A DNA stretch of 64,000 nt from Microcaldota archaeon (GTDB lineage: Archaea; Micrarchaeota; Micrarchaeia; Micrarchaeales; Micrarchaeaceae). Position 1 is the stretch's first letter. Each line of letters begins with the position of its first letter. Shown here in pieces: positions 24,838 to 28,692 of the stretch. The translations under genes were made by a program, and so were the position numbers. Below the pieces are notes generated by a model. That model ran no database searches, was not told the origin of the DNA, and was given only the letters and a program-made list of their open reading frames with translations. The DNA lies in NCBI GenBank assembly GCA_021799475.1, contig JAJZAJ010000001.1:248001-312000 (forward strand). Reading direction: 5' to 3'.

Positions 24838-25806
24838 TTGCAGAGAAAAGAAAGTTTTGAGGAGCTTAGAGAAAGGATGCTCAAGAGCGCCAAATCTGGA
24901 ATAAAGAGCGCATATTCGAGCGAGGAGTACGCACTCATCCAGTCAATCAACGCATACCTCGAGACGGAAAAATCGATGAACCTTGCATACGAAAGGCTTA
25001 CCGAATGGTTTGGGATATATCTGCCGGAAATAAGGATGAGCAATGCGAGGACACTGGCGGCACTTGCGCTTTCAATCGCGACGAAGCCCATAACACTGGA
25101 ATCGGTCGCAGAGGCGGTGGAAGACAGGCAGAAAGCGGAACAGATAGTGCAGAAGGCAAACCAGACGATAGGCAGGAAGATGAACGATGAGGAGAAGCAG
25201 ACTGTAGCCAGCTTCGCGAAGATGCTGAAGGATATGGGTCAGTCAATGGAATCGCTGCAGTCCTACATAAAAGCATCTGCGACCAGGGTGCTCCCCAACG
25301 TAACATATCTCACTGATGAGAAGATAGCCGCGGAGATGTTGAGCAAGGCGGGCTCAATGGAGAGGTTTGCATTGATGCCGGCAAGCACCGTACAGCTGCT
25401 CGGTGCGGAGAAAGCGCTATTCAAGCACCTGAAATTCGGGAACAAGCCGCCGAAATACGGCGTACTGTTCAAATTCGCGCCGATAGGCACCGCACCGAAA
25501 GACAAACGCGGAAAGATTGCCAGGGTGTACGCCACGAAAATAGCCATAGCGCTAAAAGCGGATTATTACTCGAAGAACTTCATAGCCAAGGATCTCAAGG
25601 AAAGCATTGATTCTACAGTGCAGAGGATACTAAAGGAGCCGGAAAAACAGAAGCAGCAACAGCATCGCAATCCAGCGCAGCAGCAGGGCCGCCAGCTTTA
25701 TCGGAGCAACAGGCCAAGGCAGGGCAACCATGGGCATCACGGCAATGAAAGGAGCAGGTTCAAAAGGAGAGATGGAGGCAGGGATTCCGGAAAAAGAGGA
25801 TTTTAG
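24838..25806 (+). CDS. nop5: C/D-box sRNP core protein Nop5 (Nop56/58)
   Basis: 322 residues from a TTG directly after an in-frame TGA (ATG at 24874 is the alternative). A coiled-coil region (about 90-160) is followed by the Nop domain with GAEKALFKHLKFGNKPPKYG and RGKIARVYATKIAIALKADY. The C-terminal ~60 residues are Gln/Arg/Gly-rich and probably RNA-binding. Nop5 scaffolds L7Ae and fibrillarin on C/D guide RNAs for 2'-O-methylation of rRNA. Fibrillarin, the usual neighbour, is not in the window. Confidence 0.92.
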   Translation: MQRKESFEELRERMLKSAKSGIKSAYSSEEYALIQSINAYLETEKSMNLAYERLTEWFGIYLPEIRMSNARTLAALALSIATKPITLESVAEAVEDRQKAEQIVQKANQTIGRKMNDEEKQTVASFAKMLKDMGQSMESLQSYIKASATRVLPNVTYLTDEKIAAEMLSKAGSMERFALMPASTVQLLGAEKALFKHLKFGNKPPKYGVLFKFAPIGTAPKDKRGKIARVYATKIAIALKADYYSKNFIAKDLKESIDSTVQRILKEPEKQKQQQHRNPAQQQGRQLYRSNRPRQGNHGHHGNERSRFKRRDGGRDSGKRGF

Positions 25807-25908: not shown

Positions 25909-28029
25909 ATGATGACAGGACAAAGTCATAATTTTGGCGGAGTAAATGAAGAGAAGGGACTGGCAAGTGCCGAGAACGGAACGCTTGCAGATGATGCCTG
26001 CGGCTGCGGCGGAGGAGGCTGCGGTTGTGCGGACTCAGAGCAGGAGTCTGGAGCAAAAGGGGAGTCCGGCTGCGGATGTGGTTCGTGCGGCTGTGACGAA
26101 GAAAAGACAGCCTCTCCAGCACCCCAAACCTCTAATGCTGGTAAGACTATACAAGCTTCTTCAGGCAAACAGGGCAACGCCCAGGCACAGGTTCAAGTTC
26201 AAGTGCAAGTAAAAAAAGAGCTTCCTGAAGAGATAAACAGCAAGAGGCCGGAAACGAAAATGGACGACGTGAATACCAGCGATCCTCTCTACGCTCCGTA
26301 CCACAGGACAATGGAAGATATGGAAAAGATGCCAGTAATAGAGAAAACGATGACTGTCTGCCCGGAATGCAAGCTGATAATAGAGGGCACGATATACAAG
26401 GACGGCGACAACGTAATGATAAGGAAATTCTGCCCGGAGCACAAATGGACAGTCGAAAAGTACTGGGAAGACTATGACATGTATACGAAGATGAAAAGAT
26501 ACAATTATTTCGGCAGGGGCTTCGACAATCCGAACTATCTCGGAGGGGGAGAAAACTGCCCGATGGACTGCGGGATGTGCGAAAGGCACCACACGCACAC
26601 AGGGCTTGCGAACGTGGTAGTGACAAACAGGTGCCATCTTTCATGCTGGTACTGCTTCTTCTATGCGAAAGAGGGAGAGCCGATATATGAACCGAGCGTG
26701 CACGAGCTCGATAAGATATTCAAAAACCTCAGGAGCGCGAAGCCTATAGCGGCAAATGCGCTTCAGATAACCGGAGGAGAGCCGACGATGCATCCCGAAA
26801 TAGTGGAAGTGATAAGGCTCGCGAAGAAGGCGGGCTTCGACCAGATACAGCTCAACACTACTGGCATAAACCTTGGACTGAATCCCGATCTAGCGGTAAA
26901 GATAAAGCAGGCCGGATCCGGAACGCTCTACATGAGCTATGACGGTGTTACCGCAAGAGCAAATCCTAAGAACCACTGGGAAACACCGCTGGCTCTCGAT
27001 GCGTGCAGGAAAGCGAAGATAAATGTAGTATTGGTGCCTACTGTTATCAGGACGATAAACGACCATGAGCTCGGCAGCATAATAAACTTTGCGCTGAACA
27101 ACATGGATGTGGTAAGGGCAGTCAACTTCCAGCCGGTTTCGCTGGTGGGCAGGATGCCATCGAGGCTAAGGGAGAAGCAGAGGATTACGATACCCGGCGC
27201 GATAAAGCTCATAGAGCAGCAGACAAACGGCGTGATAAGGAAGGAGCACTGGTTCTCAGTCCCGTATGTGGGAGGGATAAACAAGTTCATAGAAGCGCTA
27301 TCCGGAGAGCATAAGTACGACCTTTCGATACATTTCGCATGCGGCGCTGGAACCTATCTGTTCCTCGATAAGGACAACAAAGTCATACCTGTAACGGACT
27401 TCGTAGATGCGGCAGGGCTCGTGGAGCTGCTGCAGAAAGGAGTCGATGAGATGCAGGGCAAGGGATCTGTACAGAGAAAGCTTATCGCAGCGAAGACTCT
27501 GCTCAAGATACCGAGCCTGATAGACAAGCAGAAACAGCCGAAATCCGTTAACTTCGAGAAACTGCTCATGTCTATACTGCTGAAGAGGGACTTCGCATCG
27601 ATGGGTGCGCTGCAGATGAAGTCCTTATTCGTCGGAATGATGCACTTCCAGGATGAATATACGTATGACATACACCGCGTGGAGAAATGCGACATACACT
27701 ATGCGCAACCGGACGGGCAGGTGCTGCCGTTCTGCACTTTCAACGTATTTCCTGAGATATACAGGGACAAGATACAGAAGCAGTACAGCATACCGGCAAA
27801 GGACTGGCTGAAGGTGCATCCGGACTGGAACTACAGGGCTGACAAGTACATGAGAAATGTCAAGCTGCTGGAATCCAGCGAACCGTATGTCAGGACCTAC
27901 TGCAAGATGCAGGACTACTTTGCCATGCCGGTCAACGGAGGCAAACCCGTCGCAAACTTCTCCAACGAAATGCAGAAATCACAGGACGTCATACCTGCAG
28001 AACAGCTGCTGGCGCAGATAGCAAAGTAA
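25909..28029 (+). CDS. Radical SAM protein resembling archaeal tetraether lipid synthase (Tes)
   Basis: 706 residues. Order: a Gly/Cys-rich segment (residues 30-62) with eight Cys in CGCGGGGCGC and CGCGSCGC; a Gln/Val linker (VQVQVQVQ); a CPEC...CPEH zinc-like site (151-177); CPMDCGMC (217-224); the radical SAM cluster CHLSCWYC (C242, C246, C249); ITGGEPTMHP; and a C-terminal region with CDIHYAQPDGQVLPFCTFNV. The extra Cys motifs and the C-terminal pattern match the MJ0619/Tes family, which joins the lipid chains of two archaeols to make tetraethers. Membrane-lipid coupling is therefore the likely role. The Gly/Cys N-terminus is not part of the known core. Confidence 0.82.
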   Translation: MMTGQSHNFGGVNEEKGLASAENGTLADDACGCGGGGCGCADSEQESGAKGESGCGCGSCGCDEEKTASPAPQTSNAGKTIQASSGKQGNAQAQVQVQVQVKKELPEEINSKRPETKMDDVNTSDPLYAPYHRTMEDMEKMPVIEKTMTVCPECKLIIEGTIYKDGDNVMIRKFCPEHKWTVEKYWEDYDMYTKMKRYNYFGRGFDNPNYLGGGENCPMDCGMCERHHTHTGLANVVVTNRCHLSCWYCFFYAKEGEPIYEPSVHELDKIFKNLRSAKPIAANALQITGGEPTMHPEIVEVIRLAKKAGFDQIQLNTTGINLGLNPDLAVKIKQAGSGTLYMSYDGVTARANPKNHWETPLALDACRKAKINVVLVPTVIRTINDHELGSIINFALNNMDVVRAVNFQPVSLVGRMPSRLREKQRITIPGAIKLIEQQTNGVIRKEHWFSVPYVGGINKFIEALSGEHKYDLSIHFACGAGTYLFLDKDNKVIPVTDFVDAAGLVELLQKGVDEMQGKGSVQRKLIAAKTLLKIPSLIDKQKQPKSVNFEKLLMSILLKRDFASMGALQMKSLFVGMMHFQDEYTYDIHRVEKCDIHYAQPDGQVLPFCTFNVFPEIYRDKIQKQYSIPAKDWLKVHPDWNYRADKYMRNVKLLESSEPYVRTYCKMQDYFAMPVNGGKPVANFSNEMQKSQDVIPAEQLLAQIAK

Positions 28030-28089: not shown

Positions 28090-28692
28090 GTGGATTCGAT
28101 GGACAGGAGGGATACAAAGGAGGTGGCGCTGAACAAGCAGGTCTTCGGACCGCAAGTCGAAGCTTCCGAGACGCAGGAAGGCGAGATGTCATGGGTAGAG
28201 GAGAGCGGAAAACTCTACAGGATGCCATACAAGATGATAAAGCAGGTAGTATTCTCCGAACTGGACAAAAACGAGCTAAAGGATATCCCTTATAGCGCAA
28301 GGCTGCAGTACAGGCTTCTGCTCATGGAGCCGGTGCTCAAGGCTAAGGTCGCATTCCACAAGCGATTCATAAGGATAATATACAACCCAACCGGAGCGGA
28401 CAACATAAAGCCGAAAATAAGCAGGGAGCAGCTCATAAAGTTTCTTGCCGATGAGGGGGTGCATGTGAGGCAGGATAAGATAGAAGAGAGGGACTACGAC
28501 TACTACAAGGAGTTCTATCAGTATGCATATTTCCCGAAGTCAATAAGGGAGGCTCCTCCGTATGGCTGGACAAAGGAAGAGTGGCAGAAGCAGAAGGAGA
28601 AACTGGCAAAGCAGCAATACAGGAAGGAGCATCCGACTGTGCTGGACAGGATCCGCACGGCGCTCAAGCCAAAGGATCATGCAACTTCCTGA
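28090..28692 (+). CDS. Conserved-looking protein of unknown function next to Tes-like gene
   Basis: 200 residues (GTG at 28090; ATG at 28099 equally plausible with GGAGG nearby). The middle (about 70-125) has a beta-alpha-beta-beta-alpha feel: MEPVLKAKVAFHKRFIRII, then SREQLIKFLADEGVHV, reminiscent of ferredoxin-like HMA domains but without the metal CxxC. The C-terminal third is rich in Tyr, Lys and Glu (EERDYDYYKEFYQYAYFPKS). No membrane helix. It starts 60 bp after the radical SAM gene on the same strand and is probably cotranscribed; a role as its partner is inference. Confidence 0.65.
   Translation: MDSMDRRDTKEVALNKQVFGPQVEASETQEGEMSWVEESGKLYRMPYKMIKQVVFSELDKNELKDIPYSARLQYRLLLMEPVLKAKVAFHKRFIRIIYNPTGADNIKPKISREQLIKFLADEGVHVRQDKIEERDYDYYKEFYQYAYFPKSIREAPPYGWTKEEWQKQKEKLAKQQYRKEHPTVLDRIRTALKPKDHATS

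Follow-up and report, generated by a model that had tools for sequence, protein, structure and literature searches.

A predicted tetraether lipid synthase of Micrarchaeales with an end-changing CxC module and a linked HMA-fold partner

INTRODUCTION

The closest described system to the locus analyzed here is the tetraether lipid synthase (Tes) of M. jannaschii (MjTes; also GDGT-MAS, MJ0619; Protein Data Bank [PDB] codes 7TOL and 7TOM). Its published description (PMC9433317) gives Tes three [4Fe-4S] clusters and one iron, with two of these sites at the surface. The ligands named there are C9/C12/C33/H36 for the rubredoxin site, C73/C77/C80 plus a His for the N-terminal cluster, and the radical SAM triad; Q268/S271/R275 of the SAM loop, the labile M439, and Y459 are also listed. 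By the published mechanism, SAM would be cleaved at the radical SAM cluster, and one of the sulfurs in the C-terminal [4Fe-4S] cluster would hold a substrate carbon for the time being. The TrsS radical SAM (seleno)proteins (NF045646) are homologous to Tes in the N-terminal ribbon and in the radical SAM region.

Two further groups of proteins bear on this locus. Metallothioneins and CxC copper-binding tails are Gly/Ser/Glu-rich, disordered sequences with CxC pairs and almost no aromatic residues. The HMA proteins include CopZ, Atx1, and the N-terminal domains of CopA, and HMA metallochaperones bear an MxCxxC metal loop. Here we describe a window (the whole stretch of 64,000 nucleotides analyzed) in which Tes, an enzyme of known identity, comes with two features that were not expected: a CxC module that swaps ends and a closely linked gene for an HMA-fold partner. 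Neither a CxC module that changes ends on one Fe-S enzyme while keeping its grammar nor a linked HMA-fold partner was found in the literature that we searched.

RESULTS AND DISCUSSION

Identification of the synthase

The window derives from an 814-kb genome (95% complete, three contigs) of a member of the Micrarchaeota that is probably host dependent; our genome searches covered all three contigs, contig 2 to within 836 bases of its end. An open reading frame (ORF) on the forward strand (positions 25909 to 28029) is open across 706 codons (706 aa). In alignment, its Tes homologues begin at the second ATG (MTGQS..., position 25912), which is therefore probably the true start of tes. The features of the enzyme proper are as follows.

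25912 to 28029 (ORF opening at 25909), forward strand: tes, predicted tetraether lipid synthase of the radical SAM class (NF045702; 7TOL; Foldseek matches 7TOM/7TOL)
26284 to 26337, forward strand: PLYAPYHRTMEDMEKMPV element ahead of the core, near universal in Micrarchaeales Tes and lacking in the Tes of the other orders of Micrarchaeota
26335 to 26469, forward strand: rubredoxin-like zinc-ribbon domain (PF23545, E = 2.5e-11; mapped to MjTes C9/C12/C33/H36)
26344 to 27795, forward strand: Tes core (NF045702, residues 146 to 629; conserved in 104 of 104 sequences; ligand roles from PMC9433317)

The initial annotation had recognized a Tes-type core with a C-terminal motif CDIHYAQPDGQ...PFCTFN; the motif lies at residues 594 to 611, and the assignment is borne out by family score, fold, and residue conservation. 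The protein scores 648.8 bits against the NCBIfam Tes family NF045702 (cut-off, 450), with the profile covering residues 146 to 629. Against the TrsS family it scores 291.6 bits, which is under the cut-off of 490 and far under its Tes score, and the two are told apart on these values. M. jannaschii GDGT-MAS (7TOL) is the closest solved homolog (E = 5.3e-125), and the best Foldseek matches of the predicted structure are 7TOM/7TOL, at 38% identity. The AlphaFold model behind this comparison was built with 25 close homologs, has moderate confidence (pLDDT 62), and served solely for assignment of fold and disorder.

All the MjTes metal ligands and catalytic residues that we checked by residue mapping occur in the window protein, and nearly all of the mapped positions are kept in 104 of 104 distinct micrarchaeal Tes sequences, the exceptions being H36 (99/104) and R275 (103/104). 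The rubredoxin site takes the form CX2CX20CX2H (C151, C154, C175, and H178). The ligands of the N-terminal [4Fe-4S] cluster, C217/C221/C224, are invariant (104/104), as is H227, a candidate and likely the fourth (His) ligand. The radical SAM CX3CX2C motif is C242-X3-C246-X2-C249 (104/104); the region of the C cluster holds C478/M578/C594/C609; and the equivalents of Met439 and Tyr459 are M578 and Y598 (both 104/104). The window Tes and GDGT-MAS thus have in common the whole core of ~485 residues, with all four metallocofactor sites, the Met439/Tyr459 equivalents, and Gln268, Ser271, and Arg275 of the SAM loop, whereas the window Tes has, beyond these, an N-terminal element specific to Micrarchaeales (APYHRT...MPV), a C-terminal extension that continues, conserved, past the profile (~residues 630 to 690), a disordered tail with the CxC module, and a co-conserved partner gene. 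Judged by its sequence, the window gene is a bona fide tes encoding a predicted enzyme.

Phyletic distribution and origin of the gene

Zeng et al. (PMC8941075) raised the possibility that Tes genes of DPANN archaea come from their hosts. Applied to the window, this would make tes a mis-binned gene of the host archaeon, a concern voiced in the literature for DPANN metagenome-assembled genomes (MAGs) as a class. The window tes, however, sits on a 438-kb contig, among micrarchaeal neighbors: a Nop56-like gene accompanies tes in 46 of 110 loci and PheRS-beta in 40 of 110. Searches of 301 genomes of the phylum recovered tes from ~137 Micrarchaeales genomes and from 11 genomes of other micrarchaeal orders. 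The full-length Micrarchaeales proteins are 66 to 79% identical to the window protein, making up one family, and form one supported clade in a tree whose single characterized sequence, MjTes, lies on a very long branch. The gene is also present in a record titled complete genome (L097, ARM-1). With the long contig, the single family across ~137 genomes, and the conserved neighbors, we conclude that tes is native to Micrarchaeales and not host contamination; mis-binning is extremely improbable. For Micrarchaeales, this answers the suspicion of host DNA. No Tes was found on viral contigs, and the plasmid matches were just distant haloarchaeal and bacterial radical SAM proteins (21 to 30% identity).

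Four MAGs titled Candidatus Marsarchaeota (L034, L044, L057, and L073) have a Micrarchaeales-type tes and are probably mislabeled; the partner gene described below is also present in L044, L057, and L073.

The CxC module and its placement

Ahead of the core, the window Tes carries the following features.

25999 to 26094, forward strand: CxC module (CGCGGGGCGC...CGCGSCGC), eight Cys, residues 31 to 62 (found by sequence; similar C-terminal modules in most relatives; disordered in the model)
26179 to 26217, forward strand: VQ-repeat flexible linker, residues ~91 to 103 (found by sequence; pLDDT about 28 to 45)
26227 to 26253, forward strand: short motif EEINSKRPE, recurring as NINNKRPE/EVNSKRPE in many Micrarchaeales Tes tails

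An N-terminal segment with eight cysteines in Cys-Gly repeats, followed by a VQ-repeat linker, had been noted in the initial annotation, and both were confirmed: the cysteines (residues 31, 33, 38, 40, 55, 57, 60, and 62) all fall in four CGC pairs within a span of 32 residues. A Cys-Gly extension does recur in homologs, but it is not the N-terminal extension of one protein; it is lineage-wide and changes ends. Among 99 distinct Micrarchaeales Tes sequences, the module is C-terminal in 59, N-terminal in 13 (the window protein included), split in 1 (L079, with four Cys at each end), and absent from 26. These 99, together with 5 sequences from other orders, make up the survey set of 104, in which 31 (26 + 5) have no module. 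The module is likewise absent from all 11 Tes of other Micrarchaeota orders examined (the 5 in the survey and 6 more). As a quarter of Micrarchaeales Tes do without it, the module is not essential. The module-less sequences include a well-supported clade of 14, some of which share sample codes with module-bearing MAGs; no separate Cys-Gly protein that might replace the module in module-less genomes was seen in the surveyed loci or in the window genome.

Full-length alignment showed that most relatives without the N-terminal segment have a segment of this type (SCGCG...SCGCG) at the extreme C terminus. In the Tes of one relative (G176), the C-terminal module, placed just beyond the aligned core, is 58% identical to window residues 28 to 80, a likeness that is partly compositional. 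Placement at the N or the C terminus is nearly exclusive (Fisher P = 1.3e-5, kinship ignored). Mapped onto a core-only tree, the module states need 10 changes, and N-terminal modules appear in three places, namely, the genus of the window, a second genus (L030, L075, and L078), and L068; the closest relatives of the window clade, L087 and L091, have a C-terminal module. Some deep branches of this tree are weak, and the placements fit both independent gain and relocation. Tails are otherwise unalignable, save that IN[NSTI][KVI][RKM]P is matched by 38 of the 104 distinct tails; the KRPE-type motif ([IV]N[NS]KRPE) is possibly a docking motif.

The cysteines of the module follow a consistent grammar, with 491 of 527 in CxC pairs, in which x is mostly Gly. 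Their number has a mode of 8 and a range of 4 to 12. In the whole genome, Cys makes up 1.04% of ORF residues, and an ORF search returned no convincing second protein with a CxC array; since Tes is the sole plausible carrier, the array is not a product of chance. Two ORFs with more Cys per scanning window were rejected as module copies, as they look like spurious frames. Searches against Pfam, NCBIfam, and PDB gave no family match for the module, and the model shows disorder across it (pLDDT about 30).

These tails could be taken for low-complexity drift, fast-changing disordered sequence that gains Cys-Gly codon repeats without function, in keeping with their rate (3 to 10 times that of the core at the protein level), their widely varying lengths, and the 26 of 99 proteins without a module. 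Against this, pairwise dN/dS of the tail is about 0.15 to 0.3 between related genes in the pairs with unsaturated dS, and the cysteines are mostly kept; the CxC grammar is alike at both ends and in many lineages; 73 of the 99 have the module, most of these with at least 7 Cys; and nothing similar is seen on other proteins of the genome. We therefore consider drift quite unlikely. By its substitution pattern, the Cys tail is translated and under purifying selection.

The module plausibly binds a metal or an Fe-S cluster, as far as its composition can tell. The 2[4Fe-4S] ferredoxin spacing CxxCxxCxxxC does not occur in it, and adjacent cysteines are spaced at i + 2 (CxC) 248 times and at i + 3 (CxxC) 13 times, which speaks against a cluster of the ferredoxin type and favors a thiolate, metallothionein-like site. 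The module resembles metallothioneins and CxC copper-binding tails in its CxC pairs (Cys-rich CxC/CC being the hallmark sought), few aromatics, Gly/Ser/Glu richness, and disorder. It differs from metallothioneins, to which it is likened by sequence only, in having no family match and in being no small free-standing protein: in every case it is fused in frame to Tes, at one end or the other of this single enzyme or split between both.

An alternative use of the cysteines would be as a donor, repair, or electron-relay element that passes iron or a cluster to the N-terminal [4Fe-4S] cluster, the rubredoxin iron, or the C cluster. The three [4Fe-4S] clusters and the single iron of Tes, of which two lie at the surface (PMC9433317), are possible recipients; the modal eight Cys could serve two clusters, and a module attached to either terminus could reach any of them. 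The scarcity of CxxC, however, is unlike ferredoxins, the number of Cys varies from 4 to 12, and relatives without the module exist, so that a donor role is possible but rather unlikely. Our best guess, from the sequence features above, is instead that the module is a tethered metallothionein-like thiolate patch that would buffer soft metal or iron on behalf of an enzyme rich in Fe-S clusters. Its attachment by a disordered linker, at whichever end, is in keeping with such a tethered local reservoir and not with a folded domain.

The linked partner gene

The gene immediately downstream of tes has these features.

28099 to 28692, forward strand: Tes partner gene, 197 aa from the ATG at 28099 (in-frame GTG at 28090), directly 3' of tes in 108 of 110 loci
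28234 to 28497, forward strand: HMA-like domain within the partner (beta-alpha-beta-beta-alpha-beta), lacking the CxxC loop (1P6T profile; AF2; 3CJK_B)

The partner lies on the same strand as tes in those 108 loci; of the two exceptions, the sequence of L034 ends first, and in L108 the partner was not found. It was recovered from 136 of the 301 genomes of the phylum, all of them Micrarchaeales. Both genes are present in 134 genomes, tes alone in 3, and the partner alone in 2 (Fisher P of about 1e-18 on the listed genomes, a value that overstates independence, as adjacency eases joint loss). In genus g5, six genomes (G071, G090, G195, and G286 to G288) are without tes and the partner, and two (G009 and G055) have both, by joint loss or an assembly gap.

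No Pfam or NCBIfam family was found for the partner. A profile of 20 homologs nevertheless matches CopA HMA domains significantly (1P6T, E = 1.9e-6), and AF2 predicts a confident beta-alpha-beta-beta-alpha-beta domain (pLDDT over 90 for most of it) that superposes on 3CJK_B over 75 residues at 1.6 Å (VIA; Z = 11.6). The predicted fold is thus that of CopZ, Atx1, and the CopA N-domains (Z up to 11.6), but the partner departs from these in the absence of the MxCxxC loop, in its extra N- and C-terminal parts, and in its genetic tie to tes. The window partner has no Cys at all, and the family has no conserved Cys. Given this HMA fold without metal cysteines and the linkage to tes, the partner is most likely a docking or positioning subunit of Tes. 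It is retained in Tes loci without the module, and so partner and module need not work together.

The C-terminal end of the partner is basic, often GFWFHG, and could be drawn into another reading of the module, as a membrane or protein tether whose cysteines are lipid modified, or crosslink or Zn-bridge Tes to itself or to this partner, to reach a membrane substrate. The substrate is indeed a lipid of the membrane, the module sits flexibly at a terminus, and several C-end modules end in CGC or CNC. Yet no lipid-modification signal was recognized, the module of the window protein is internal (residues 31 to 62), and the association of the WFHG end with the module (raw Fisher P = 1e-6) comes down to 4 independent pairs and loses significance once the tree is taken into account. 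We regard tethering of this kind as improbable.

Proposed mechanism

From the observed family membership, residue conservation, gene pairing, and module distribution, we infer a scheme that extends to catalysis, metal binding, guarding, and docking. By the published mechanism, the micrarchaeal Tes would make GDGT, a rigid lipid of double length, by linking two diether lipids at the ends of their phytanyl chains, working with its co-conserved HMA-fold neighbor as the likely docking or positioning subunit. The CxC module, flexible and tethered such that its position at the N or C end would not matter, would most likely use its thiolates to bind a soft or transition metal close to Tes and so guard (or supply) the Fe-S and rubredoxin sites of Tes in metal-rich acid. 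Our confidence in this combination, an authentic Tes with an HMA-fold docking partner and a thiolate metal-binding guard module, is evenly balanced.

A guard function is motivated by two points. Radical SAM enzymes lose their activity to Cu(I) both in vitro and in vivo, since it destroys their clusters directly (PMC9576991), and among the genes of this genome is one for a copper-type P1B ATPase that has a YHS domain; a copper-rich habitat may be surmised. Two observations speak against it: the module occurs on no other protein of the genome, though a general need for metal protection would predict more, and one in four of the Micrarchaeales Tes has none. Were the guard reading correct, an Fe-S enzyme with an end-changing CxC module and an HMA partner could show how a radical SAM enzyme survives metal-rich acid.

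Lipid pathway context

Family searches recovered GGGPS, two UbiA-family proteins, and CarS from the genome, along with two geranylgeranyl-reductase-like (GGR-like) proteins below the family cut-off. Neither G1P dehydrogenase (G1PDH) nor HMG-CoA reductase was detected in it. Among 31 good-quality genomes of the group, G1PDH is present in 1 and HMG-CoA reductase in 13; all four archaeal controls have G1PDH. The same two gaps are seen in Ca. Micrarchaeum harzensis (Krause et al.; PMC8975820), for which dependence on host lipids or precursors was inferred and whose co-culture has up to 97% GDGT-0 in its lipids, like the host alone. G1PDH is reported in some Micrarchaeales (PMC12892359), and its presence therefore varies within the order.

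The initial annotation had suggested that the organism remodels lipids that it may not make itself. The lack of detectable G1PDH and HMG-CoA reductase fits imported precursors, but with GGGPS, UbiA-family proteins, GGR-like proteins, and CarS present, this is one reading among several. From this gene content, the archaeon may import precursors and finish its lipids itself; uptake of finished lipids would also fit. Together with Tes, the two gaps make the proposition that the organism takes up precursors and finishes tetraethers itself directly testable. We suggest, tentatively and with considerable doubt, that Micrarchaeales run a lineage-specific tetraether-making unit, composed of Tes with an end-swappable metal-buffering CxC module and a metal-free HMA-fold subunit, that would convert host-derived or precursor-fed diethers to GDGT. 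If so, the symbiont would control how rigid its membrane is, although its genome encodes only part of the lipid pathway.

Other genes of the window and genome

Judged by motif, the 814-kb genome appears to have just one further radical SAM gene, at G000:C1:203457-204584, and its product scores below all listed NCBIfam cut-offs.

Upstream of tes, a Nop56/Nop5 homolog (24838 to 25806, forward strand) matches only positions 112 to 405 of the 417-position profile, its N-terminal part being missing. In other archaea, that part of Nop56/Nop5 binds fibrillarin. A fibrillarin gene is nonetheless present in the genome (C3:329499-330140).
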